Assembly (NCBI GenBank): GCA_947175295.1
Contig: CAMWMK010000029.1
Coordinates: 1-37,184 of the forward strand
From: an uncultured Porphyromonadaceae bacterium
GTDB taxonomy: Bacteria > Bacteroidota > Bacteroidia > Bacteroidales > Muribaculaceae
DNA: 37,184 nucleotides
Direction: 5' to 3'
A program made the translations under genes and the position numbers. The notes beneath the pieces are model-generated. The model was given only the letters and a program-made list of their open reading frames with translations, ran no database searches and had not been told where the DNA came from. This document shows positions 228 to 32,645 of this stretch, piece by piece. Position 1 is the first letter of the stretch. Every line of letters begins with the position of its first letter.

Positions 228-308
228 TCCCTCAATGAGGGACGATTTGGATGAAAAATATCCCTCATTGAGGGATAAAATTACCCGAAAATGTCCCTCA
301 TTGAGGGA
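228..308 (+). repeat. Array of three 15-nt palindromes with exact 33-bp spacing (putative operator)
   Basis: Three copies of an odd-centred perfect palindrome occur at 228-242 (TCCCTCAATGAGGGA), 261-275 and 294-308 (both TCCCTCATTGAGGGA). The start-to-start distance is exactly 33 bp both times, leaving 18-bp spacers that are not conserved apart from an A-rich run before each copy. The first copy is the same palindrome with its central base flipped. Copy 3 overlaps the position expected for the -33 element of the ATPase promoter, so a protein bound there would compete with RNA polymerase. Autoregulation by the ATPase or a partner is inference. Confidence 0.85.
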
Positions 309-315
309 TTTTTCG

Positions 316-323
316 TATATTTG
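316..323 (+). promoter_or_regulatory. -7 promoter element of the ATPase gene
   Basis: TATATTTG matches the Bacteroidetes -7 consensus TAnnTTTG exactly. Transcription would begin near 331, almost at the ATG at 333 and close to the ATG at 342, so the mRNA may be leaderless or nearly so. The expected -33 position (about 292-295) has no TTTG and touches the third palindrome. Confidence 0.55.
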
Positions 324-332
324 CAGAAAAAT

Positions 333-1520
333 ATGGATTTTATGGTAGATTATTCGCTTATAAGTTTTATGGAAGAACGGCTGAAGAGTACTCCGGTTGC
401 ATTCAGACGATACATGTATAGCCGTATCAACTGGGAAAGCCGTCTTGTAGGCCTTACGGGGCCGCGCGGTGTAGGAAAGTCAACGATGATGCTCCAATAT
501 ATGCTTGCTCAGACGTCAAGGAAACATATGCTTTACGTTGCCGCAGACCATATATGGTTTGCGACCCATTCGCTCGTAGAGCTTGCAGACGACTTCGTGA
601 AGTCAGGAGGGAAATGGCTCTGCATTGATGAGGCACATAGACACGAGGGATGGTCGCGGGAAATAAAACAGATCTATGACGGGCATCCTGACCTCCGGAT
701 TGCCTTCACGGGCTCGTCGGTGCTGGATATCAACAGGGGAGAGGCGGACCTGAGCCGTAGGGCATTGATGTATCATATGCAAGGCCTCTCTTTCAGGGAA
801 TACCTTGAGATGTTCCATTCCATAGAGGCTCCCCTTCTAAGTCTGGAAGATATCCTGAACGGGGATGTGAGTATGCCCGATGCGCTTGAGCATCCTCTTC
901 CATTGTTCCGTCAATATCTGGCGGAAGGATACTATCCGTTTGCGATCGAGGGAGACCTCGCACAGAGGGTCCAGCAGATAGTGAGTCTTACGGTAGAGAC
1001 GGATATTCCAATGTATGCCGACATGAAGGCCGCGACGGCGCGTAAGCTCAAACAGATGCTCGGTATAATCGCGGCATCCGCCCCTTACAAACCGAGTGCC
1101 GATCATCTTGCCCAGGAGATAAAGGTAAGTAAGAACAATGTGCCTGATTATCTGCTGTGGCTTGAAAAGGCAGGGATGATCGGACAGCTTCGCGACGATA
1201 CCGGCGGAATGCGGGGTCTGGGAAAAGTGGAGAAGGTATTTCTCGATAATCCGACATTGATGACCATACTTTCCGGAAGCAGACCAAATATAGGAAACCT
1301 CCGGGAGACCTTTTTCTACAATCAGATGCGTGTGGACAATGATGTTATGTCGTCAAAGATCTCGGATTTCCGTATCAAGGATGCCACATTTGAGGTCGGG
1401 GGCAGGAACAAGGGTCAGCGACAGATCCGTGAGGCGGAGAAGGGTTATGTGGTAAAGGACGATATCGAGTTCCGCCATGCCAATATCATCCCCCTCTTCC
1501 TCTTCGGACTGACCTATTGA
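333..1520 (+). CDS. AAA family ATPase (AAA_14 / DUF4143-type)
   Basis: A cytosolic P-loop ATPase of the AAA_14 plus C-terminal DUF4143-like type, which is common and often multi-copy in Bacteroidales; its biochemical role is generally unknown. Visible motifs are Walker A GPRGVGKST about 40 residues in, Walker B-like WLCIDEAH, a sensor-like IAFTGSSVLDI, then a winged-helix-like segment (LAQEIKVSKNNVPDYL, LEKAGMI) and the C-terminal signature YVVKDDIEF...IIPLFLFGLTY. The frame is open from an ATG at 291, but that codon lies upstream of the -7 box and overlaps the third palindrome region. I therefore take the ATG at 333; the ATG at 342 is equally possible. No signal peptide is present. The convergent neighbour ends at 1604. 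Confidence 0.85.
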   Translation: MDFMVDYSLISFMEERLKSTPVAFRRYMYSRINWESRLVGLTGPRGVGKSTMMLQYMLAQTSRKHMLYVAADHIWFATHSLVELADDFVKSGGKWLCIDEAHRHEGWSREIKQIYDGHPDLRIAFTGSSVLDINRGEADLSRRALMYHMQGLSFREYLEMFHSIEAPLLSLEDILNGDVSMPDALEHPLPLFRQYLAEGYYPFAIEGDLAQRVQQIVSLTVETDIPMYADMKAATARKLKQMLGIIAASAPYKPSADHLAQEIKVSKNNVPDYLLWLEKAGMIGQLRDDTGGMRGLGKVEKVFLDNPTLMTILSGSRPNIGNLRETFFYNQMRVDNDVMSSKISDFRIKDATFEVGGRNKGQRQIREAEKGYVVKDDIEFRHANIIPLFLFGLTY

Positions 1521-1603: not shown

Positions 1604-3874
1604 TCAGAAAGGCAGCGTGACGCGCTTCGTTTTTCCGGCCTTTACGTCTATCGGGGTGAAACGGCTGACGAATGCGTTGTCGCCGAGTGGCTTCGCGGCA
1701 TTCGCGTCGCTCTCCGCCATTATTGTATAGGTGGCGTCCATCCCGGTCGGGTTCGTGATCTCCAACGTCACCTTCCTGCCGTCGGCCTTGATTATCTTCG
1801 CTTCGGCATGGTCGAATACCATAAGTTCTTCTCCGCCCCGTACATAGATTCCGGGAATCTCAAGCGCCATGAGGGCTCCGTTAGTCTCGTTCCATCCTGT
1901 CTTCCAGTTTGGGTCGAGATACCCGCGGCTGTCGGCATCGCAGTAGGTGAGACGTTCGTTGATGGTGCCGTCAGGTTGGATGCCCTCGGCATGCGCATGT
2001 ATGATGTCGCGTAGCAGTTCGGCGTAGTCTCGGTTGCCGCCCGCGCGGTACAGCTTGAAAAGCGCATCTCCCGATAGAGTGCAGAATCCGGGCGCGCCAT
2101 GCTTGTTCTGAGTGCTTGCCCACACCGCGCCCATCATGTTGGCTCCAGTCTTGGCGAGCATTAGGTCGGGAGGCAACTGATAGTCGAACGAGACGGTCCA
2201 TGTGGAGCAAAGATCCGCCAGACGTTCTCCCATGGTCAGGAATTTCCGGTCACCGGTGATTTCATAGAGGCTGACCATTCCCGTGGCAAGGGCTATGGCC
2301 GTTTCCGAGTCGGCGTTCTGGAGTATGTCGCCGCATCCCCCCGATGTGAATCCCACTACCTTGAAATTATCATAAAGGTTTTGCGCTGCCTCGCAGGCTA
2401 CCTTCAGATAACGGGAATCATCGAAATACCATGACGCCAACGCCATGCCGGCCACGGCGCTCGCGCCGCCGGTGGTGTTGAAGGTGGCCGGCGCGCCCGT
2501 TTCGACATGGATGTAGCCTCCCCAGGTGCCGTATTCTTTCCAAGTGTCGAGGAAAGCGTCGGCCAAACGCCGTGTCTCCTCCTCCCACATTGGATTGATG
2601 GCTGCCTGACGGCCGGTGGCTTTCAGCAGTTCCAGCTGCTTCACCATCCAGTAAAGCAGGTCGCCGTTTTTGCGGGTCAGACCGATGCCGGGTACTATGG
2701 CGCAGGCATCGCGCAGTTCCACGGTGCCGTCCGGCTTGAGCAGGTCGTAGAAATAACCTGACTCTCCTTTCCCTTGCGGCAACCCGAAATCGAAGGTACG
2801 GCTCACTCGGCGGAGGTGTTCGGCATCTCCGAGGGCGAGCATGGGATAGGTGTTGATCATGCCCCCTATCCAGCCATACGACATCCAGTCCCAGCCTTCC
2901 GGCCTGTAGAATTCCACGCTGTCGCGGGCATAATACCGGTTGTCGATATTCTCGTCCATCACCTCCAGCACCCTGCCCATAGGATAGAAATCGCGTGGCG
3001 GGCGAGAGGTGGGGGAGGTGTGGAGTTTGCGTATGTGCATGAAGCCCGCGAGGAGATCGGCGGGGGTGCTTGCAGGAAACCTCACTTCCGTCACGCTCAC
3101 CGTGAGCGTGTCTCCCTTGGCGAAACTCATGGCGCGGTCAGGGCTTTCGCTGAAGCCGATGAATTCAGGTTTCTTCTCCCTGACCCCGGGCGCGGCGATT
3201 ACGGCGGTGGCTCGGGAGCGGTCGGGACTTTCCTCCACTATGAGGGCATGGTCGTGGATGGCGTTTCCTTGGGGGATGCCCTGATCGGTGAGCAGGATTA
3301 TTGCTTCCTTGCCACTCCGGTCAAGGATGGCTATGGCCGGAGTGGCTGCATTGCATACACTCACTTCAAGCAGGGAAGGGCTTCCGAAATCCGGACTGAG
3401 CTGCGGGATGGGGTTGGAGGTGAGGGCGAGGTCCCTGCGGTCATAGTCTGTAGGGTCAAGTCCTGTGGCATACCGGCGGTTGACGATTCTCTGTCGGTTG
3501 CCGTTATAGACCGATGCCGGAATCATCACGTAGTTGTCGCTGCTCCAGCCGCTGAAATCATGGGCCACTGCGACTCCGCTTTCATCCATGTCCTCTCGGG
3601 CTATGAAATGATAGGTGGTTTTGGAGGCGGTTGCGCTGTCGATTAGCGAGGGGATGTGGATCTTGCGCACGCACTCCTCCCGCTCTACGGTCCAACGGCC
3701 GGAGTCCTCGACCGGCGATGAATTACTGAGATACTGCCTGTCATACCTGCAATCCAGCAGCCTCGTTCCGTTATGGATGCCGGCAGGCATCCATTTAGTC
3801 CTGCCTGATGCCATGGTCACGAAGAAAGAACACACTATCGCGGCTATCGCCAAAACACTGTTTTTACACTTCAT
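1604..3874 (-). CDS. Exported six-hairpin (alpha/alpha)6 glycosidase-like protein
   Basis: A 756-residue secreted protein. The N-terminus is a clear signal peptide (MKCKNSVLAIAAIVCSFF..., cut near residue 24). About 270 residues look like beta-sandwich, and the middle and C-terminal half reads as a helical toroid of the six-hairpin glycosidase type: WDWMSYGWIGGMINTYPMLAL, GGCGDILQNADSETAIALATG, and repeated helices with Gly/Trp turns. A short beta domain with Thr-rich strands closes the protein. I cannot assign a CAZy family or catalytic residues. It is divergent from the FG-GAP gene across a 403-bp intergenic region and probably belongs to the same glycan locus. The promoter candidate is at 3952-3959 on the minus strand. 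Confidence 0.7.
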   Translation of the reverse strand: MKCKNSVLAIAAIVCSFFVTMASGRTKWMPAGIHNGTRLLDCRYDRQYLSNSSPVEDSGRWTVEREECVRKIHIPSLIDSATASKTTYHFIAREDMDESGVAVAHDFSGWSSDNYVMIPASVYNGNRQRIVNRRYATGLDPTDYDRRDLALTSNPIPQLSPDFGSPSLLEVSVCNAATPAIAILDRSGKEAIILLTDQGIPQGNAIHDHALIVEESPDRSRATAVIAAPGVREKKPEFIGFSESPDRAMSFAKGDTLTVSVTEVRFPASTPADLLAGFMHIRKLHTSPTSRPPRDFYPMGRVLEVMDENIDNRYYARDSVEFYRPEGWDWMSYGWIGGMINTYPMLALGDAEHLRRVSRTFDFGLPQGKGESGYFYDLLKPDGTVELRDACAIVPGIGLTRKNGDLLYWMVKQLELLKATGRQAAINPMWEEETRRLADAFLDTWKEYGTWGGYIHVETGAPATFNTTGGASAVAGMALASWYFDDSRYLKVACEAAQNLYDNFKVVGFTSGGCGDILQNADSETAIALATGMVSLYEITGDRKFLTMGERLADLCSTWTVSFDYQLPPDLMLAKTGANMMGAVWASTQNKHGAPGFCTLSGDALFKLYRAGGNRDYAELLRDIIHAHAEGIQPDGTINERLTYCDADSRGYLDPNWKTGWNETNGALMALEIPGIYVRGGEELMVFDHAEAKIIKADGRKVTLEITNPTGMDATYTIMAESDANAAKPLGDNAFVSRFTPIDVKAGKTKRVTLPF

Positions 3875-8467: not shown

Positions 8468-10921
8468 ATGACATATATCAATAAATCATTGGCTATGGCC
8501 ATGCTGATGACTGTCGGCGGAGTTGCCGGGTCTTTCGCCGCAGACTATAAGGCGGAGGAGGGAGACTGGGCCATCACAGTAGCAGAATCGACTAAGAAGA
8601 TGACGCTGACCTACCGCGACATCAATCTGCTCAATGACGTATATGCCGCCTCCACCTACAACTACCTCGGAGAGACTGAGGAGCATACCGTGTCGTCGCT
8701 CTCAATGGACGTGATGCCGGAAGTGGGCGTAGAGAATGTGTCTGACTGCTTCGGTGATGGTAGGAGATACGACTTCAAGTATGCTGCCGACGACGTAATC
8801 CTGACCCAGAGCTTTTTCTTCTATCCTTCCCTCCCGTATGCACTGGCGCAGGTGAAGGTGGAAAGCGCAGACGGGCGTGAGCTTCAGTCAGGTTCGCTCA
8901 CGGCCTTGGCAGCTGGAGCCTCTTCCGCACCCCTCAACGGAGCCTCCAACAGAATGGTATGGGTGCCTTTCGACAACGACGGACATCTGAAGTATGAGGT
9001 AAACGTGATGAAGAACGGCGACGAAATGACGTCGCATGAAGTGGGCTACGTATTCGACGGTGAATCCCGTCGCGGCCTTATAGCCGGATCGGTAGACCAT
9101 GACACATGGAAGAGCGGTGTGACCATAGCCGGAACCAACGGCTACCGCATAGACAAATTCGAATGCCTCTCAGGCTATACCGGATATTTCACACGCGATG
9201 CGCTTCCCCACGGCAAGGTGAGCGGCAGGTCGGTGGCTTCGGCCAGGTTTTTCCTCGGCCTTTACGATGACTGGCGCGAAGGTCTCAACGACTTCGGCGA
9301 AGCGAATACGAAAGTAGTGCCGAGGGCTGAATGGAGCGGCGGCAATCCTATGGGATGGAGCAGCTGGGGAGTGCAGCAGAACTACATCACCTACGATGGA
9401 GTCGAGGAGTCGGCACGCTTCATCAAGGACAACCTCTACGATCTCGGATTTCACAACAACGACGGACAGACCGTAATAAGCCTCGATGCCTTCGCCGGCG
9501 ACAACATTCCCTCCAACAAGCTGTGGAGCCTCGGCACGAAGGTGTTCAGCGACGGAACTTACCGCGACGGCCGCGATACGAAGCAAGGCACCAACCAGGT
9601 GCTCGGCGAATACTGCGGTCCGCTCGTAGCTTGGGAATGGGCTCTTGACAGCAAGGTGCCGGGAACAGGCCTCAACGGCACGCCTGACTATACTTACCGC
9701 GACATAGCTCTCAAAGTGAACGGACAGGTCTATAAAGTGTCGTCAAACGGCGGATGCGCCGTAGACCCGACACATCCAGGCGTGAAGGCCAACATCGAGT
9801 TCTTCCTCAAGCAGTATGCCACCAACGGAACGAAATACATCAAGGTAGACTTCCTCAACAACGGCATCATAGAAGGCGACAGCTGGTATGACCCCGATGT
9901 CACCACCGGCGTGCAGGCCTACAACTACGGCATGAAGCTACTTTATGAGGAGGCTTCGAAATACGGCATGTACATAGTGGAGTCAATCTCCCCGATATTC
10001 CCTTATCAGTATGCCCACGGACGCCGCACCTGCTGCGACCGCTTCAGCGAGATAGGGGAGACGGAATATGTGATGAACGCCATGAGCTACGGATGGTGGA
10101 CCGACCGCCTTTATACTGTCAACGACCCCGACCAGCTCGTGATGTGCAAGGGTGGTCACGGAGCCAGGGAGACGATAGGGGAGAACCGCGCACGCGCCAC
10201 TTCCGGCATGGCTACCGGAGCCTTCATCTTCGGCGACAATTTCAGCGACAAGGTGCTCTACACCGATACCAAAGACGGCCATGTGAAGGGCGACGTGGTA
10301 GGTTATCCTGAGGAGTCGAGACGTCGTGCCATGGAGATCATGGGCAACCCGGACATCAATGAGTATGTGAGGAACCATACAGGTTCATTCATGCCTGTCG
10401 ACGGCCATAAGCCCTCCTCCTCGCAGAGCGCGGAAAGCATGTTTGTAAGGCGTACGGACGACGCCCTGTATCTCGCGGTGTTCAACTATGGCGGTCTCTT
10501 CGCTTCCAACGGTAGCGTGGCTTATTCGCGCCTCGGGCTGTCTGATGCCGATGAGATCGGCGAGATAAAGGAACTCTGGAGCGGCGAGACAGTGGCGGCC
10601 GACGGTGACGCCCTGGAGTATTCGGTTCCGGCCAAGGACGTAAAGGTGTTCCGTTTCTCATTCGGAGGGGCAGGAGTAGGCCAGACCGTCGCAGGGTCCG
10701 GCATGGAGATATCGCTTGTCAGAATCTCAAAAGGACTCTATGCCGCTGAGGGCTGCGGCGAAATCAAGGAATACCGCGTCTATGGCCTTTCCGGATCGCA
10801 GGTGGCGTCGGCACGCGATGTCGGGTATGTGGATCTCAGGAATCTCGCAGCGGGCGTATATGTGGTGGAAATCGTGGCGGCCGATGGCTCGCAAGGTTAT
10901 TCAAAGGTGATAAATAATTGA
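8468..10921 (+). CDS. Exported GH36-like (clan GH-D) glycosidase with C-terminal sorting domain, second paralogue
   Basis: An 817-residue paralogue of the preceding gene, with the same order of motifs: MGWSSWG at the barrel start, YIKVDF (nucleophile Asp461), RRTCCDRFSEI (acid/base candidate Asp524), then YGWWTDRLY and GENRARATSG. It has an extra loop of about 60 residues in the barrel (around DGRDTKQGTNQVLGEYCG). The last 80 residues form a type IX secretion-like sorting domain (YRVYGLSGSQV ... LAAGVYVVEI ... YSKVI). The N-terminus is a signal peptide (MTYINKSLAMAMLMTVGGVAGSF). It is probably surface-bound or secreted by T9SS, unlike its shorter neighbour. Its stop overlaps the start region of the HTCS gene. 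Confidence 0.78.
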   Translation: MTYINKSLAMAMLMTVGGVAGSFAADYKAEEGDWAITVAESTKKMTLTYRDINLLNDVYAASTYNYLGETEEHTVSSLSMDVMPEVGVENVSDCFGDGRRYDFKYAADDVILTQSFFFYPSLPYALAQVKVESADGRELQSGSLTALAAGASSAPLNGASNRMVWVPFDNDGHLKYEVNVMKNGDEMTSHEVGYVFDGESRRGLIAGSVDHDTWKSGVTIAGTNGYRIDKFECLSGYTGYFTRDALPHGKVSGRSVASARFFLGLYDDWREGLNDFGEANTKVVPRAEWSGGNPMGWSSWGVQQNYITYDGVEESARFIKDNLYDLGFHNNDGQTVISLDAFAGDNIPSNKLWSLGTKVFSDGTYRDGRDTKQGTNQVLGEYCGPLVAWEWALDSKVPGTGLNGTPDYTYRDIALKVNGQVYKVSSNGGCAVDPTHPGVKANIEFFLKQYATNGTKYIKVDFLNNGIIEGDSWYDPDVTTGVQAYNYGMKLLYEEASKYGMYIVESISPIFPYQYAHGRRTCCDRFSEIGETEYVMNAMSYGWWTDRLYTVNDPDQLVMCKGGHGARETIGENRARATSGMATGAFIFGDNFSDKVLYTDTKDGHVKGDVVGYPEESRRRAMEIMGNPDINEYVRNHTGSFMPVDGHKPSSSQSAESMFVRRTDDALYLAVFNYGGLFASNGSVAYSRLGLSDADEIGEIKELWSGETVAADGDALEYSVPAKDVKVFRFSFGGAGVGQTVAGSGMEISLVRISKGLYAAEGCGEIKEYRVYGLSGSQVASARDVGYVDLRNLAAGVYVVEIVAADGSQGYSKVINN

Positions 10922-10929
10922 AAAAATAT

Positions 10930-13900
10930 ATGTTGCGGAAGGTAAACAGATATCTGCTGTATATAGCGGCCTGCCTCATTCTCGGACTGACTGAAGCGCA
11001 GGCACGGCAGCACTATGCCTTCACTCAGATCGGAAGCGACCAAGGGCTTTCCGCAAGTTATGTGAAGGCCATAGCGCAGGATGCCAACGGATTCATATGG
11101 TTCGGCACCAAAAACGGCCTCGACCGTTTCGACGGCGTTTCGATTCGCGACTTCAACTGCCGCGATGCAGAGGCCGGGCGTGGCAACAACAACATAGGAG
11201 CTGTATATGTGGCCGACGACGGCGACATATGGGTAGGTACCGACCGGGGAGTCTATATATTCGATCCCCATACGGAGACATTCAAGGTGCTTGACATCGT
11301 CAGTCCGAACGGAGTGATGGTGGAAGACTGGGTTCAGACCATAACCGGAGACAAAGAGGGAAACAAATGGATTCTGGCGCCCAACCAGGGAGTGTTCAAA
11401 TATTCCAAAGGGAAGATGGAATACTACAGCGTGACCAACCATGGCGGCAACAAGGAGAAACTGCCGGTCAGCCTTCTGGTCACGTCGACCGGCGACGTGC
11501 TTGTAGGCACAAACAACCAGGGCCTCTATGTCTATGCTCCTCAGACCAACCTCTTCAGGAAGGTCAAGGGCGACGACGGAGCGTTTGATGGCCTCGACAG
11601 CGTGATGGCCCTTTATCTGGATGAATTGCCTGATGGCAGCGTGGTGATAGCCACAAGAGACGGAAGGCTCTTCCACGTATCACCGTCGCTGAAGCATCTC
11701 TCTGAAATAAGATATTCAAAACAAGGCAGATCCTATCTGCACTCGATGATGTGTGCGGGAGATGAGATCTGGCTCGGTACTACCGAGGGTGTGCATACCG
11801 TCAGGATGGCTGACGGCCAAGAGGAGGAGATCAGTCTGCACACCATGGGACATCGCTCCATATCCGACAATACCGTCACATCATTGATGGCCGACCGCGA
11901 CGGCAACATATGGGCCGGAACCATGTTTGGCGGAGTCAATCATATCCAGCGTTCGGGCCTGATATTCGAGAAATACGGGAGCGACACTTCATTGCGCGGA
12001 CTTTCAAGCAATCATATAAGAGGGATGGCTGTGGATTCAAGGGGGAATGTCTGGATAGGCACGGAGGAGGCCGGAATCAACAGGCTCGATCCTAAGACCG
12101 GAATCGTGACACACCTGCCTACGGACAATGCAAATGAACGGATTACGCTATGCATTGAAGCAAACGGAGGGAACGTCTATGCCGGATTCGCGAGAGGGGG
12201 ATGCGTCATCATGACCGAAGACGGAGTGCGTGTAGGCACTATCGGCACCGACCTCCTCAAATCGGTAAAGGATGTCTATTGCGTGCTCAACGACAGGGAT
12301 GGAAACATATGGCTTGGAGCTTCATGGGGACTTTTCCGGAAAGACAGGGGCGCATCCCTGTTTGAGAAGATAGAGGATGTAGGTGAAAGCTGGATATATG
12401 ACATGCATCAGGATTCGAAAGGCATCGTATGGATAGCTTCAATGGGGCAGGGAATATGGATCTACAATCCTTCGACAGGAGCCTACAGGCATCATGCGTA
12501 TGACGAGAACCACAGCAACGGACTATGTTCCAATTCGGTAAGTTCGATTACCGAAGACAGCAAAGGCAATATATGGTTTTCAACCGACCGTGGCGGCCTC
12601 GCTCTGTATCTTCCGGCTTCAGACAGCTTCCGTACCTACGACAGGGCGAGCGGACTTCCCGACGATACGGTCTACGACGTGATAGAGGACGGCAACGGCT
12701 ACCTATGGTTCGGTACCAACCGCGGCCTGGTGAAATTTGACCCGGCTACGGGCGCCTCCAAGGTATTCGGCAACGGCAAGAGTCAGTTCAACTATCAGTC
12801 GGCCGTGAAGGACAAGGAGGGTCGGTTCTATATGGGAGGCATCGACGGAGTGCTCGTATTCAATCCCGACGCTGATGTGCGCGAGAGTGAGGCTCCTATA
12901 TTCTTCACTGATTTCAGGCTCACCCGCGGAGAAGAGGAGCATGGAAGGGTGAAGGGACTGGAGAAGGAGAGCATCCTTTTCTGCAAAAAGGTGGAGCTTG
13001 ATGCCGACAACTGCGACTTTTCGGTGAGCATCGGCTCGCCTGACTATGTGACGCATACCACCGAACAGTTCGTCTACCGTCTTCTTCCGCTCAGCGACGA
13101 CTGGAAGACAGTAAGCAATCCGGCCGATCTCTCTTTTGCCGGAATATCTCCGGGCAACTATACCCTTGAGGTGAAGCGTATCGGCACTGCCGACGGACCG
13201 AAGCGGCTCGCCATCACGGTGCTCTCCCCATGGTTTCAGTCATGGTGGGCCCTGTGTCTGTATCTGCTTATGTTCGCCGGATTCATAGCCCTCTGCTGGG
13301 GTGTCTACCGCAAGCGTCAGATGCAGAAGCTTGCTGAGAAGGAGGAGATCTTCACCATAGAGAAGGAAAAGGAACTCTATAAGAAGAAAATGCAGTTCTT
13401 CACGGAAATCGCGCATGAGATCAGGACTCCCCTTACACTTATCGGCACTCCTCTTGAGGCCATAGAGGAAATCGGCGTGAAGGACAATCGGATTCAGAGG
13501 TATCTGAAGGTAATACGTCAGAACACATCGCGTCTTCTTGATCTCACAGGGCAGATACTCGACTTCCAGAAGATGGATTCGGAGACCCACGCGCTGAAAT
13601 TCGAGACCGTAGACATCAATACGTTGGTGCAGGAGATAATCGACCGTTTCGAGGTGACGATCTCAACCCGGAATAAGGAACTCCTGTGCAAGCTTCCGGA
13701 GCGTCAGGTGCTGGCAACCGTAGACAAGGATGCCGTCATAAAGATCCTCAGCAATCTTTTCAACAACGCCATGAAATATTCCGACCGGTATATAGAGATC
13801 ATTCTTGAGATTCAGGAAGAAACGTTTACTGTGTCGGTGAAAAGCGACGGCGAGAAGATCACAGGCGAAAACCGCTACAGGATATTCGAGCCTTTCTATC

Positions 13901-14955
13901 AGGCCACCAACAAGACCGACAACGGCGGCGTAGGCATAGGACTGCCGCTCTGCCGGACGCTCGCCCATCTTCAGGGGGGCACCATCGAGCTTCTGGACGA
14001 TGACGATCCCGGTATCAACACATTCCGCCTGACGCTCCCCCTCAAGGCCGCGATAGAGGAGCCGGAGATGAATGCGAGCCCGGTCTTGACGGAATACGTG
14101 CTTGAGGAAGATTCCCCCGTCAGAACCGAGACTTCCAGCTATTCGCTGCTCTTTGTAGACGACAACGAGGAGATGCGCGAATTCCTCTACGACCAGCTCA
14201 GCAAGGACTTCAATGTGGAGACGGCCGCTGATGGGGAGGAGGCTCTGGCAAAGATGAAGGAATTCAATTTCGATATCATCGTGACCGACATAATGATGCC
14301 GGTGATGGACGGCTATGCGCTCTGCAAGGCCATAAAGGATGATCCCAATCTATCGCCGATTCCTGTGGTGTTCCTCACGGCGAAAAACGATCTCGAGAGT
14401 AAAGTGCGGGCCCTCGAATGCGGCGGAGAGTCGTATATAGAGAAACCCTTCTCCATAAAGTATTTCCGCCAGCAGATAAAGTCGCTCCTCGACAACCGCC
14501 GACATGAACGCAAGGCATTCCTCAACAAGCCCTTCTTCTCGGTAGACAACATGAAGATGAACAAGGCCGACGAGGAATTCATGAGTAAGGTGGTGGCTCT
14601 CATCAACGACAACATAAGCAATGAGGGCTTCAATGTGGAGAGCATGGCCGACACGCTCTGCATGAGCCGCAGCAGCCTGCTGCGCAAGATAAAGACGCTT
14701 TTCAACCTCTCGCCGGTGGAACTCATCCGCCTCGTACGCCTCAAGAAGGCGGCCGAACTGATCCAGGAGGGGCAGTACAGGATGGGCGACATCTGCTACA
14801 TGGTGGGCATCAATTCGCAGTCTTATTTCACCCGCCTCTTCTTCAAGCAGTTCGGCATCACTCCGAAGGCTTTCGAGAAGCAGTGTCAGGAAAAGATAAG
14901 CCGCAACGAGAAGCCCGACCCGATAGACGTGAATCTTCCTTCAACCCAATCATGA
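10930..14955 (+). CDS. Hybrid two-component system regulator (HTCS)
   Basis: A one-protein sensor, kinase and transcription factor, typical of Bacteroidales polysaccharide loci. In order: signal peptide (MLRKVNRYLLYIAACLILG), a large periplasmic double beta-propeller of Reg_prop repeats (for example NGFIWFGTKNGLDRFDG, GNIWAGTMFGGV), a Y_Y_Y domain, one membrane segment (near residue 770), histidine kinase with H-box AHEIRTPL (His829) and ATP-binding NLFNNAMKYS / GGVGIGLPL, a receiver with DIIVTDIMMP (Asp1120), and an AraC-type HTH at the end (RMGDICYMVGINSQSYF). Numbering is from the ATG at 10930; an in-frame TTG at 10918 overlapping the previous stop is the alternative start. It is embedded in the operon and presumably senses an oligosaccharide released by these enzymes. 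Confidence 0.93.
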   Translation: MLRKVNRYLLYIAACLILGLTEAQARQHYAFTQIGSDQGLSASYVKAIAQDANGFIWFGTKNGLDRFDGVSIRDFNCRDAEAGRGNNNIGAVYVADDGDIWVGTDRGVYIFDPHTETFKVLDIVSPNGVMVEDWVQTITGDKEGNKWILAPNQGVFKYSKGKMEYYSVTNHGGNKEKLPVSLLVTSTGDVLVGTNNQGLYVYAPQTNLFRKVKGDDGAFDGLDSVMALYLDELPDGSVVIATRDGRLFHVSPSLKHLSEIRYSKQGRSYLHSMMCAGDEIWLGTTEGVHTVRMADGQEEEISLHTMGHRSISDNTVTSLMADRDGNIWAGTMFGGVNHIQRSGLIFEKYGSDTSLRGLSSNHIRGMAVDSRGNVWIGTEEAGINRLDPKTGIVTHLPTDNANERITLCIEANGGNVYAGFARGGCVIMTEDGVRVGTIGTDLLKSVKDVYCVLNDRDGNIWLGASWGLFRKDRGASLFEKIEDVGESWIYDMHQDSKGIVWIASMGQGIWIYNPSTGAYRHHAYDENHSNGLCSNSVSSITEDSKGNIWFSTDRGGLALYLPASDSFRTYDRASGLPDDTVYDVIEDGNGYLWFGTNRGLVKFDPATGASKVFGNGKSQFNYQSAVKDKEGRFYMGGIDGVLVFNPDADVRESEAPIFFTDFRLTRGEEEHGRVKGLEKESILFCKKVELDADNCDFSVSIGSPDYVTHTTEQFVYRLLPLSDDWKTVSNPADLSFAGISPGNYTLEVKRIGTADGPKRLAITVLSPWFQSWWALCLYLLMFAGFIALCWGVYRKRQMQKLAEKEEIFTIEKEKELYKKKMQFFTEIAHEIRTPLTLIGTPLEAIEEIGVKDNRIQRYLKVIRQNTSRLLDLTGQILDFQKMDSETHALKFETVDINTLVQEIIDRFEVTISTRNKELLCKLPERQVLATVDKDAVIKILSNLFNNAMKYSDRYIEIILEIQEETFTVSVKSDGEKITGENRYRIFEPFYQATNKTDNGGVGIGLPLCRTLAHLQGGTIELLDDDDPGINTFRLTLPLKAAIEEPEMNASPVLTEYVLEEDSPVRTETSSYSLLFVDDNEEMREFLYDQLSKDFNVETAADGEEALAKMKEFNFDIIVTDIMMPVMDGYALCKAIKDDPNLSPIPVVFLTAKNDLESKVRALECGGESYIEKPFSIKYFRQQIKSLLDNRRHERKAFLNKPFFSVDNMKMNKADEEFMSKVVALINDNISNEGFNVESMADTLCMSRSSLLRKIKTLFNLSPVELIRLVRLKKAAELIQEGQYRMGDICYMVGINSQSYFTRLFFKQFGITPKAFEKQCQEKISRNEKPDPIDVNLPSTQS

Positions 14956-20910: not shown

Positions 20911-23661
20911 ATGAAAAAAGCACTGACCCTTATATCCTTATTGATCTCCATTTGTTGCTATGGAAGCGTCACGACATTGAATGTCGCTCCGGAGGCGCGC
21001 GTCAGCGCTTCATCTTTTGTGGCCGGGCATGAGCCTTGTGGAATCAACGACGGCCTTGCACGCATAGCGGGTAAGGGTGATTGGCTTTCCGATGTCAAGG
21101 AGACATTTTGGGGTGAGATTGATTTCCCCTGGATACGTCTTGACTGGAATCGCCCCATAGAGGTGGATAAGGTGGTGATTTATGATCAGATTTCGTCTGA
21201 TTCAAATACTTCGGGAGTGATGCTTCGCTTCAGTGACGGCTCAAGCTACGATGTCGGTTGTATCCCTGCCTCCGGAGCTCCTATAGAGGTGGACCTGGGA
21301 GGTAAAGTGACGGAATCAATTATGGTGGAGGTAATTGACGGTAATGGAGACAATCTTGGACTCTCGGAAATAGAGGTATATCCCACACCCCAAAGCTGTG
21401 GGGATTATGTCTCGATGGTCAATCCGTTTGTTGAGACCACCCGTGGAAGATACTTCTTCTTCATATCCGGATGCCAGCCTCAGGGCATGATTGGAGCGGC
21501 TCCCATGACCAGGAATAAGAACCAGGGAGGCGGAGGATACAATTACAATGATTCGCATATTTTGGGATTTCCGCAGATCCATGCATGGATGCTTTCCGGC
21601 CTCAGCTTTATGCCTGCATCATCAGGTGTAATGACTACTGGAGGCGAGGATGGGTGGAAGTCAGGATTCTCCCATTCCGGAGAGATCGCTTTCCCGGGCT
21701 ACCATAGGGTCTATCTTGAAGACCATAGAGTATGGGTGGAACAAACGGCCACCCAGCGTACTTCCGCTTACAGGCTGACCTATAGCGCTGATACAGAGGC
21801 TAACCTCCTTCTTGTTTTAGGAGGCTATGTGGGTACTTCAACTATGGTCAATGCCGATGTCAGGGCAGTATCGTCTACAAGACTGGAAGGCTCGTTCGAC
21901 ACTACCGGACGGCTCTGGGGTGGTCCCGACTTCGTGAAGGTATTCTTTGTAGCGGATTTCGACAGGCCGTTTAGGAATCTTGATTCATGGACCGGAGAAT
22001 GCATAAGCCATGATGTCGATGGGCTTGCGGTGAATACCGAAAGTGTGCCCCGAAATGAAGGAATGAGCTATCATGATGCGCAAAATACAGGCCTTAATGT
22101 GCGCTTTCCCGTGCAAGCCGGTGAACCGGTGGAAGTGAAGATGGCTGTTTCTTATGTCAGCGTGGATAATGCCCGAGATAATATGGAGAAAGAGGCCGGA
22201 GGCATTGGATTTGATGAAATCCGGGCTCGCTCAACGGAAGAATGGAACGACTGGCTCGGAAAGATCGAAGTGAAGGGAGGTACGCAAGACCAACGTATAA
22301 AATTCTATACCGATCTATGGCACACTCTTCTCGGACGGCATAAGATCAATGATGCCAATGGAGAGTATCCCGACCGTACGAAAGGAGGCTGTATCAAGGG
22401 AAAAAATGTGATCGATCCTGTCTTCAGGGTGGGTAAACTGCCGGTGGATAAAGCCGGTCATCCAGTCTTCAACATGTATAATTCAGATGCCCTATGGCTC
22501 ACGCAATGGAATCAGAATACATTGTGGGGCCTTGCGTGGCCTTCGCTTCTTGACGATTTCAGCGCGTCGATGGTGGAGTATGGTGCCAATGGTGGCCTTA
22601 TTCCCCGCGGACCGTGCGGAGGCGGATATTCATTCATCATGAGCGGATGTCCCGCCACTTCAATGATTACAAGCGCTTATCAACGGGGACTCTGCCATAA
22701 GTGGAATCCTGGAAAGGCATACGGCATCCTGCGCCGTAACCATGAGAAGGGGGGGATGCTCGGCTACAACTATGAGCGTGAATTTGATGTCTACGATGTT
22801 GAAGGGTATGCTCCCGAACGGGGCGGTGTGACCGTGCAGTGGGCATTTGAAGACTGGGCCTTGAGCCAGATGGCCACCGCAATGGGAAAGCGGAAGGATG
22901 CCGCGAGATTCGGGCTTAGGTCAAAAGGTTGGGTTAAATGCATTCATCCTGACCTCCATCTGCTTCTTCCATTGAAGGAAGACGGCTCATGGCTTCACAC
23001 GGATCCGTTGAGCGGATGGGGATTCGAGGAAGCGAACTCATGGCAAACCACTTTCGGACTTTCCCACGACATCCCCGGGCTTGCCGAGGCGATGGGGGGA
23101 AGCGATGTTCTGTGCGATATGCTTGACCATGCTTTCACGCAAAGCGTAGACGGAGATTTCGTGGCGGGATATGGGTCGGGCTATGTAAGCTACGCGAATC
23201 AACCGGGACTTTCCTCAGCGCATGTGTTTTCCCACGCAGGGCGCCCTTGGCTCACTCAGTATTGGGTGAGGCAGGTGAAGAAAAAGGCATATGGCTCGAT
23301 ATCCCCGTCAAGAGGATATGGCGGACATGACGAAGATCAGGGGCAAATGAGTGGGGTGAGCGCCTTGATGGCCATCGGACTTTTCTCGATCAACGGCGGC
23401 TCTGCGATCAATCCCTATTATGAAATCACTTCCCCGATATTCGATGAGATCATAATAAAGCTTGACAAGGAGTATTATAGTGGAGACGAATTCAGGATAA
23501 AGACGTATGGAAATTCCGACCGTAACTGCTACATACAGCGAGCCGAGCTTAACGGTAGGCTCCACGAATCCTTCCGTATCGATCATGATGATTTTGCGAA
23601 AGGAGGAGTGCTCGAACTCTGGCTTGGTGACACACCCAATGAGGAGTGGGGTATAAGATAG
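20911..23661 (+). CDS. Divergent GH92-family glycosidase with N-terminal F5/8-type (CBM32-like) domain
   Basis: A 916-residue exported protein (signal peptide MKKALTLISLLISICC...). Residues about 25-165 form a discoidin/CBM32-like sandwich (WIRLDWNRPIEVDKVVIYDQ ... LSEIEVYP). The rest follows the calcium-dependent GH92 alpha-mannosidase plan: NPFVETTRG, a beta-sandwich, then an (alpha/alpha)6 barrel. The acid motif is FEEANSWQ (Glu707) and the base motif is GGHDEDQGQMSG (Asp807/Asp809). It departs from typical members: the usual HGNEPSHH calcium/specificity loop is replaced by ANQPGLSSAH, and the opening NPFIGTG by NPFVETTRG. Substrate specificity may therefore not be alpha-1,2-mannose. A T8 run precedes the start codon. 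Confidence 0.8.
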   Translation: MKKALTLISLLISICCYGSVTTLNVAPEARVSASSFVAGHEPCGINDGLARIAGKGDWLSDVKETFWGEIDFPWIRLDWNRPIEVDKVVIYDQISSDSNTSGVMLRFSDGSSYDVGCIPASGAPIEVDLGGKVTESIMVEVIDGNGDNLGLSEIEVYPTPQSCGDYVSMVNPFVETTRGRYFFFISGCQPQGMIGAAPMTRNKNQGGGGYNYNDSHILGFPQIHAWMLSGLSFMPASSGVMTTGGEDGWKSGFSHSGEIAFPGYHRVYLEDHRVWVEQTATQRTSAYRLTYSADTEANLLLVLGGYVGTSTMVNADVRAVSSTRLEGSFDTTGRLWGGPDFVKVFFVADFDRPFRNLDSWTGECISHDVDGLAVNTESVPRNEGMSYHDAQNTGLNVRFPVQAGEPVEVKMAVSYVSVDNARDNMEKEAGGIGFDEIRARSTEEWNDWLGKIEVKGGTQDQRIKFYTDLWHTLLGRHKINDANGEYPDRTKGGCIKGKNVIDPVFRVGKLPVDKAGHPVFNMYNSDALWLTQWNQNTLWGLAWPSLLDDFSASMVEYGANGGLIPRGPCGGGYSFIMSGCPATSMITSAYQRGLCHKWNPGKAYGILRRNHEKGGMLGYNYEREFDVYDVEGYAPERGGVTVQWAFEDWALSQMATAMGKRKDAARFGLRSKGWVKCIHPDLHLLLPLKEDGSWLHTDPLSGWGFEEANSWQTTFGLSHDIPGLAEAMGGSDVLCDMLDHAFTQSVDGDFVAGYGSGYVSYANQPGLSSAHVFSHAGRPWLTQYWVRQVKKKAYGSISPSRGYGGHDEDQGQMSGVSALMAIGLFSINGGSAINPYYEITSPIFDEIIIKLDKEYYSGDEFRIKTYGNSDRNCYIQRAELNGRLHESFRIDHDDFAKGGVLELWLGDTPNEEWGIR

Positions 23662-31444: not shown

Positions 31445-32242
31445 ATGAAGAAAGAAAGAATGGCGGGAATCGTTCCCGCATGGAAGATCGGAAGCATGGC
31501 GCTGTCGCTGCTCATGCTCCTTGGCCTTGGCGCCTGCGGCGAAAAAAAGACAGAACAGACAGTGACGCCTATGACGACTTCAATCCTCGGCCCGGCCGGA
31601 GATGTGTTTGAAGTAGTCGACAAGCCTCGCACACTCTCGGTGAAAGACAATTATTCCTTTAATCTGAGTGTAAGTGTCAAGCGTACAGCGGAAGGCTCTG
31701 TGAAAGATCTGGAATGGGGTCTTGAACTTCTTGACGAGAACGACGAGGTAATAGTTTCGGATGAAGATTTATTTTCAATTGATGGCCGTGATACTCTTGA
31801 AGGGATTAAGGTCGGAGATGTGGGTAATCTTAAGATGCCCCTGCATCATAATGTCGATGAGTCGGATGTAAAGAAGATTACAAAGTTCAGGGTGACTTCA
31901 AAAGCGAAGAAGGACTGGGGTTCGTCATCTTCGGCTACAGATGAAGTAGCAGAGGAAGTCGTAGCGGAAGAAGTGGTTGCTGATGATGGCGCTTCCGCAT
32001 CCTCTGGCAGCGAAGACTGGGATAAGGTCCTAGACGAGTATGAGGAATTCATCGATAAGGCGGTGGCCTATGCCAAGAAGGTGAATGAGGGCGACATTTC
32101 CGCCATGGTGGAATACGCATCGATGCTGGAGTCTGCCGAGTCGCTGCAGAAGAAGCTGGAGAATGCCGGCTCCAATCTTTCCGCAGCCCAGGCTGCACGT
32201 CTCAACAAGATATCCATCAAGTTGGCTCAGTCCATGAGGTAA
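31445..32242 (+). CDS. DUF6591-like lipoprotein
   Basis: A 265-residue lipoprotein with a hydrophobic stretch ending in lipobox LGLGAC followed by GEKK. The ORF starts 17 residues before MALSLLMLLGLGAC, and that inner Met could be the true start. After a beta-sandwich-like region (about 40-155, FEVVDKPRTLSVKDNYSF) comes an acidic low-complexity linker with a repeated EEVVAEEVVA unit. The C-terminal helical domain (WDKVLDEYEEFIDKAVAYAK ... LSAAQAARLNKISIKLAQ) resembles DUF6591, common in Bacteroidales lipoproteins of unknown role. A promoter lies just upstream, and the palindromic repeat copy 2 follows the stop. Confidence 0.8.
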   Translation: MKKERMAGIVPAWKIGSMALSLLMLLGLGACGEKKTEQTVTPMTTSILGPAGDVFEVVDKPRTLSVKDNYSFNLSVSVKRTAEGSVKDLEWGLELLDENDEVIVSDEDLFSIDGRDTLEGIKVGDVGNLKMPLHHNVDESDVKKITKFRVTSKAKKDWGSSSSATDEVAEEVVAEEVVADDGASASSGSEDWDKVLDEYEEFIDKAVAYAKKVNEGDISAMVEYASMLESAESLQKKLENAGSNLSAAQAARLNKISIKLAQSMR

Positions 32243-32345: not shown

Positions 32346-32645
32346 GACATCGGAGGAGACTCCTCCGGTGTCTTGGAGATATATAAAGAGCGTTTACGAA
32401 GCGCTTGTCTCTTGACTGTTTGGAATTCTGGCAGATTTCAGTGGTCGTCAAGGACAAGGCAGCTGTAGATGCCCGCAGTGATGTAATGTCATGCTTTCGG
32501 CAGAGGGGCCCACATGTGGGCTAAAGCCGAAGGCATAGCTTACATATACGAGCGTGGGCTTCTGCGTTGCCGTCCTTACGACCAGGGCAATGCCAGAAGC
32601 CTCAAGCAGTGGGACGGCGACGAGTACGGATCCCACGCTTTTTTG
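32346..32645 (+). ncRNA. Putative structured non-coding or leader RNA of about 300 nt
   Basis: Behind a consensus promoter lie several strong hairpins: a stem of about 16 bp at 32342-32376 (CGGAGGA/TCCTCCG core); a long hairpin at about 32481-32545 (ATGTAA...TTACAT outside, TTCGGC/GCCGAA, and GCCCACATGTGGGC at the tip); and 32557-32601 (GGCTTCTG/CAGAAGCC with TTGCC/GGCAA). The end (32604-32640) is a GC-rich hairpin followed by six T. AGCGTGGG (32551-32558) and AAGCAGTGGGA (32604-32614) can both pair with the same 3' arm. I see no hallmarks of RNase P, tmRNA or SRP RNA. 6S RNA or the Bacteroidales-1 motif remain candidates; the 5' end is approximate. It could also be a regulatory leader for the gene at 32703. 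Confidence 0.55.

Follow-up and report, generated by a model that had tools for sequence, protein, structure and literature searches.

In autorepressors with cooperative operator arrays, and in plasmid Rep proteins acting on iterons, copies of a site stand at a fixed step by the gene of the protein that reads them. On the protein side, the closest described system is PDC-S01, a PADLOC phage-defence candidate, which PMC12988326, in the text available, describes as an ATPase fused to a PD-(D/E)XK member and ranks fourth in frequency among prokaryotic defence systems, most candidates of this kind still awaiting experimental validation. Another is IniR of mycobacteria, the ATPase domain of which is predicted to be SSO1545-like and which was shown to bind DNA upstream of iniBAC; in the available main text of that paper (PMC5760070) the terms "palindrom" and "direct repeat" are absent. 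Within the open-licence literature searched, the word DUF4143 was found in PMC4406477 only, as far as its available text goes, and the same search of open-licence papers gave no description of arrays such as the one presented here.

The window, that is, the whole stretch of DNA analysed, comprises 37,184 nucleotides of one contig of an uncultured Muribaculaceae bacterium. Near its start stand three candidate operator palindromes of 15 bp, for which no strand applies: TCCCTCAATGAGGGA at 228..242 (centre 235), TCCCTCATTGAGGGA at 261..275 (centre 268, 33 bp from the first) and TCCCTCATTGAGGGA again at 294..308 (centre 301, 33 bp from the second). They are followed on the plus strand by the promoter box TATATTTG (TAnnTTTG) at 316..323, to which we assign a −7 function on the assumption that the Bacteroidota consensus TAnnTTTG applies. 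With the box at this position, the last palindrome, centred 15 bp 5' of it, lies over the −33 region. Both features, the exact 33-bp period and the consensus −7 box with the last copy over the −33 region, had been noticed by a model that saw the letters alone (the sequence-only reading), and both were borne out. In the window and in the own-genome assembly (3.63 Mb, 91% complete) these three are the only exact copies of the 15-bp palindromes. Odd-centred palindromes with arms of at least 7 number 15 in the window, as compared with 2.45 expected from 40 first-order Markov sequences, and among the 15 those at 228, 261 and 294 have one common sequence and even spacing, with spacers that differ from one another. 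In the window as in homologues, one dyad recurs at a fixed step at the promoter of the gene.

The gene behind the array encodes an ATPase of 392 aa (P0002) at 342..1520 on the plus strand. Possible starts of the ORF are at 291, 333 and 342; the start at 342 was placed by homology, the nearest homologues aligning from there, with 333 also possible, and a start at 291 would sit beside the third palindrome. The protein matches AAA_14 (PF13173) with 92.9 bits against a curated cut-off of 27 (E 2e-26), whereas its match to DUF4143 (PF13635) falls below the cut-off (20.6 against 28.1 bits, E 4e-4), so that in the "AAA_14/DUF4143-type ATPase" of the sequence-only reading the AAA_14 part is clear and the DUF4143 part rests on a sub-threshold score. 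It also matches the PADLOC PDC-S01 profile at E 3e-24, for which the output gives no curated cut-off, and PDC-S01 models are matched by 84 of the 84 aligned homologues. The AlphaFold2 model, made with the alignment of 84 sequences (mean pLDDT 94.2), consists of a P-loop NTPase, a winged helix and a C-terminal domain. The Walker A motif, GPRGVGKS at residues 40-47 (459..482, plus strand), contributes G40, G43, G45 and K46 to the residues that are invariant in the 84 homologues, the others being G353 and K357. The winged helix-turn-helix at residues 230-301 (1029..1244, plus strand), with model helices at 230-246, 253-260 and 264-276, is proposed as the reading head on the basis of the model and of the operator prediction by windows inside it, with residues 264-276 (1131..1169, plus strand) as the putative recognition helix. 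Among solved folds, SSO1545 and PABY2304 rank highest for the model, ahead of CED-4 and plant NLR proteins. The window ATPase is therefore modelled as a STAND-like P-loop NTPase, an NTPase followed by a winged helix in an SSO1545-like fold, a placement that rests on fold and domain order, the sequence motifs read being the Walker motifs only. The C-terminal nuclease-like domain, residues 318-392 (1293..1517, plus strand), carries the conserved PD-(D/E)XK candidate residues D342, E351, K357 and Q361 (D342, E351 and Q361 at ≥90% in the 84 homologues), at a spacing unlike that of the ExK motif of PD-(D/E)XK nucleases; the tentative assignment to these nucleases follows this motif and what PMC12988326 says of the family.

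The array is not peculiar to the window. A search of 198 Muribaculaceae genomes at E ≤1e-40 gave matches in 49 genomes, the own one included, with up to 9 per genome; 85 of the 87 matches listed were retrieved (two fragments were left out), and 82 homologues had a usable 200-bp upstream region, a partial gene, a contig end and one with masked bases being set aside. With the self-lag called as the best lag with a score of at least 9, the lag is 33 bp in 36 of the 82, 32 bp in 20, 29 bp in 9 and 34 bp in 2, the remainder having other lags (7) or none (8). Among 115 control promoters of the own genome 33 pass the score, at scattered lags, with 4 at 29 bp, 2 at 34 bp and none at 32 or 33 bp. Dyads with a score of at least 6 occur within 30 bp 5' of the −7 box in 50 of 79 homologues as against 11 of 58 controls, and 38 of these 50 strong dyads are centred 14.5-18.5 bp upstream of the box. 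Since the count is 50 of 79, the dyad itself is not universal in the family, and some members have direct repeats instead.

The set was then widened by a scan of named genomes (80 of 295 relatives, among the matches listed) and a scan of 393 Bacteroidales genomes, of which 49 had a match at E ≤1e-105 and from which 29 further loci, from among the matches listed, were added. Plasmid and phage copies were included as well. Matches are present in 34 plasmid records, among them a Segatella copri copy of 62% identity, and in two phage records, both unannotated, while in viral contigs the query patterns had no match. The widened set gave 196 usable upstream regions, or 185 after removal of redundancy at 92% identity, with a best lag of 33 bp in 66, 32 bp in 55, 29 bp in 9 and 34 bp in 3 (133/185); the 52 that fall outside this direct-repeat range of 29-34 bp have other lags (14) or none (38), and some of them show inverted pairs, doubled lags or single dyads. 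Arrays at 29-34 bp are present upstream of 129 of 180 homologues, as compared with 8 of 180 downstream regions and 7 of 162 upstream regions of neighbouring genes (63 loci), with Fisher values of 4e-44 and 8e-42, respectively, for homologues that are not independent of one another. The array thus belongs to the promoter side of the ATPase gene itself, and the homologous genes, an absence of arrays from which would have spoken against the sequence-only reading, carry them for the most part. The position relative to the promoter is likewise preferred: in the 155 homologues with a clear operator and box, the dyad chosen for each is centred 14-18 bp 5' of the −7 box in 77, a step higher (46-50 bp) in 33 and 3' of the box in 11.

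Arrays are present in other subfamilies and in other phyla as well. DUF4143 is present in 57 of 59 Muribaculaceae genomes, and 60 genes of other DUF4143 subfamilies were taken, roughly every second among the matches listed, of which 59 were readable. Their best lags are 22-23 bp or twice that in 23, 32-33 bp or about twice that in 19, and none or other in 17, which means arrays in 42 of 59 genes versus 4 of 115 own-genome controls at those lags; some of the 23-bp arrays are near-perfect tandem repeats. Outside Bacteroidota, among 19 plasmid copies picked for spread and not at random, 8 pass at 22-23, 32-34 or 66 bp, two of them archaeal, and 11 do not, some of the latter having inverted pairs, doubled lags or single dyads. 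Compared with 7 of 162 neighbour controls at the same lags, the 8 of 19 correspond to a p of 1e-5, the lags having been chosen after the data were seen. The archaeon Methanosphaera has three identical 20-mers at 32 bp and the archaeon Haloferax has dyads at 33/66 bp; the lag is 32 bp in Treponema, 34 bp in Aliarcobacter, 33 bp (at threshold) in Arcobacter cloacae, 22 bp in Sulfitobacter, 23 bp in Asticcacaulis and 66/22 bp in Novosphingobium. In the two Thermus copies a lone dyad sits close to the start, and among the 19 the array is absent from the Thermococcus, Acidithiobacillus (start uncertain), Rhizobium etli and Lachnospira copies. All 6 of the 6 proteins scanned from outside Bacteroidota match PDC-S01. 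The array is, then, very often found 5' of its own gene in a widespread family of bacterial and archaeal ATPases.

As regards the surroundings of these copies, those of Arcobacter cloacae and Haloferax larsenii adjoin CRISPR genes (cas3, cas4; Cas3'') and that of Sulfitobacter adjoins a restriction endonuclease gene (loci L327, L338 and L336, Sulfitobacter included). Treponema and Arcobacter-group plasmid copies (L323, L151, L152, L328) lie on the same strand 3' of a gene annotated as Fic family or DUF4172, the latter being, we presume, Fic-linked.

It was also proposed that, a step of 33 bp being about three helical turns, the bound dimers would lie on nearly the same face of the DNA. This holds in part, for the step varies by branch (29, 32, 33 or 34 bp, and 22-23 bp in other subfamilies), and a general rule of helical phasing at exactly 33 bp is rejected, other branches standing at 22-23, 29, 32 or 34 bp. 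Note also that in loci L099, L102 and L111 sites like TTGTTCC...GGAACAA stand 29 bp apart (58 in L111), and a step of about 2.8 helical turns is at odds with the same-face idea.

The array sequence diverges alongside the protein, differing from branch to branch of the ATPase family. As judged by eye among the matches listed, the nearest relatives (about 60-100% identity) mostly have TCCCT…AGGGA, many homologues at 50-58% identity have GCACT…AGTGC, and hybrid operators with one half of each type also occur. Residue 264, the first of the putative recognition helix, is K with TCCC-type half-sites and R with GCAC-type ones: among 103 sequences of at least 47% identity, 62 have TCMCY- or GCAC-type dyads, and K264 is present in 24 and R in 2 of the 26 with TCMCY-half operators, while R264 is present in 36 of the 36 with GCAC-only halves. 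The two R264 exceptions (L195, L205) are counted, though their dyads are judged to be chance. K264 changed only twice on the tree and its link to the operator is not significant alone; a phylogenetic sign test of K264 against operator class has 2-3 independent pairs and no power. Over 184 sequences (pairs above 30% identity), partial association with operator similarity is strongest at column 264 (0.177), Q110 coming next (0.147), and the windows 45-60 and 301-312 come near the winged-helix windows. When 167 sequences were put to a nearest-neighbour test that left out close relatives, the top one of 93 windows falls within the winged helix at all four identity cut-offs, with small margins (245-268, 249-272, 245-268 and 245-268 at 75, 60, 50 and 45%), and the preset window 253-276 comes 4th, 2nd, 12th and 7th. 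Among close pairs that are path-disjoint, the region of the recognition helix gives no significant gain over the remainder of the protein (partial 0.14, p 0.10, 92 pairs; with a second operator measure, partial 0.04, p 0.36, 76 pairs), and other windows, 35-48 and 148-161, scored higher. The expected co-variation of palindrome and ATPase is seen in that the operator varies by branch and is predicted best from winged-helix windows; in the close-pair tests of the recognition helix it does not reach significance. The further claim, that selection acts on the palindromes rather than on the spacers, is upheld: the sites are kept better than the spacers (0.73 vs 0.51, for example, at 60-70% protein identity), with a Wilcoxon value of 2.4e-6 over 49 path-disjoint pairs matched for lag and centre type.

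The ATPase gene is solitary: within 2.5 kb on each side, no other family stands beside it in more than 4 of 63 loci. Nor was a regulon seen elsewhere in the own genome, where, of the 11 off-array near-sites (within two mismatches), the 7 that the analysis covered all lie inside ORFs of at least 120 aa, some of them perhaps spurious, and none of the 7 is in an array. The lack of a recurrent neighbour, and of any second array or exact site in this genome, suggests that the ATPase, rather than the product of a partner gene, is probably the reader of the array. On the whole the analysis supports the sequence-only reading of a dedicated self-recognition or autoregulatory system. The same genome has 13 AAA_14 genes over the cut-off, and the DUF4143 cut-off is passed by 10 genes other than the window's. 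At least 5 AAA_14 genes besides the window's have clear 32-33-bp or 23-bp arrays (L014, L018, L019, L020, L022), and the arrays of AAA_14 genes of one genome differ; avoidance of similar operators among same-genome paralogues was not seen, 66 pairs being not clearly more different than matched cross-genome pairs. At about 1081-1220 of L011 in the own genome (G000:C4) the operator pair and promoter of the paralogous ATPase gene L013 have, by eye, a near-copy 5' of a different AAA_14 ATPase, which is possibly an orphan array from gene loss or duplication. A perfect 55-bp palindrome at the very start of contig G000:C7 (L020, 1-55), just 5' of the array of another AAA_14 ATPase, may stem from a fold-back in the assembly.

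Elsewhere in the window, a 756-aa ORF on the minus strand (1604-3874) adjoins the ATPase gene and has no Pfam match at 1e-5. A carbohydrate-use cluster at 4278-25884 includes GH36 and GH92 enzymes, an esterase-like protein, a beta-helix protein and a hybrid two-component regulator (10918-14955), the scan of the cluster having left out the ORF at 20911-23661. A dyad, CGGAGGAGACTCCTCCG, lies at 32351-32367 in the gap after the ORF at 31445-32242, soon after a TAATTTTG box.

We propose that the array is the operator of the ATPase gene itself, with the ATPase binding its own array and repressing its own promoter, an explanation that we regard as the best one and to which we give a probability of about two in three. 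In this model, the ATPase, probably as a dimer, would bind each palindrome via its winged helix, and several dimers would occupy adjacent sites at a spacing dictated by the protein. Occupancy of the promoter-proximal site over the −33 region would repress the promoter, until some signal, received by way of the STAND-like NTPase module, would free the complex or change its arrangement and so raise the expression of the ATPase-nuclease. It is noted that the bacterial −7 box is not applicable in archaea, and since a step of about 32 bp is present in an archaeal copy, it is probably the protein rather than the bacterial promoter that sets the step. A repressor tolerates sites on either side of the −7 box, while an activator usually does not, and because operator sites occur on both sides of the box, autorepression is the best-supported reading. 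That the ATPase binds the array but activates its own promoter would agree with sites upstream of and touching the −33 region, and with IniR, an ATPase with a predicted SSO1545-like domain that is a direct activator according to the available text of PMC5760070; but sites 3' of the −7 box in some homologues (L073, L153 and L160; 11/155), and by eye in several of the single-dyad subfamily (among L263-L272), make activation quite improbable.

Alternatively, the array could be an assembly platform or target of the ATPase-nuclease, on which oligomers nucleate as initiators do on iterons and act on the DNA, in mobility, incompatibility or attack on relatives with a matching array, with promoter control being secondary. 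The even spacing and the several copies, the conserved nuclease-like residues, the patchy multi-copy spread (49/198 Muribaculaceae genomes, up to 9 matches in one), the 34 plasmid records and the similar arrays in two archaeal copies would all suit such a platform. Yet the array stands on the promoter side and seldom 3' of the gene (8/180), it has a preferred phase with the −7 box, and no replication or recombination partner recurs, so that we consider this alternative unlikely. A separate host transcription factor as the reader is conceivable insofar as binding by the ATPase is deduced from comparison of sequences, but such a factor is hard to reconcile with an array that varies from branch to branch and among the AAA_14 genes within a genome, that has no recurrent neighbour and is present in other phyla and archaea, and of which the ATPase winged helix is the best predictor; we regard it as very improbable. 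Slippage could produce some of the 23-bp near-perfect tandem repeats, but chance or neutral tandem-repeat expansion as a general origin is hardly credible, as the spacers in the window differ, controls (own-genome promoters, downstream and neighbour regions) are much lower and the sites outlast the spacers.

Tracking the protein as it does, the array offers a probable DNA ligand for well over 100 homologues and points to a probable regulatory circuit, so that the function of a very large and unexplained ATPase family can be tested directly. Moreover, the pairs of reader and site form a natural two-sided data set for learning winged-helix recognition. A wider idea, which we hold to be doubtful, is that self-addressing is ancestral to AAA_14/PDC-S01 in Bacteria and Archaea, the own array travelling with each gene and its step coming from an ATPase oligomer that assembles on the DNA. 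If this idea is true, the array would serve STAND activation as a scaffold of DNA and would give each of the many paralogues a private address that keeps them separate, and PDC-S01 may be selfish or rival-excluding single-gene elements, with the nuclease acting at matching addresses.

Finally, we compare the locus with the known systems. With PDC-S01 it shares the profile, which all the aligned homologues match, and the solitary gene, and a defence role of the window ATPase is a candidate one only; a cis array is not mentioned in the available text of PMC12988326 and PMC13356809. IniR resembles the window ATPase in having a predicted SSO1545-like ATPase domain in a regulator with shown DNA binding, but differs in its SdiA-like DNA-binding domain and in regulating iniBAC (PMC5760070, available text). 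The archaeal STAND-like ATPases SSO1545 and PABY2304 (2fna, 2qen) have 15-17% identity to the window ATPase, about 80 C-terminal residues of which lie beyond the aligned range. By contrast with autorepressors and Rep proteins on iterons, here a STAND-like NTPase carrying a nuclease-like tail is the presumed reader, and the site varies by branch.
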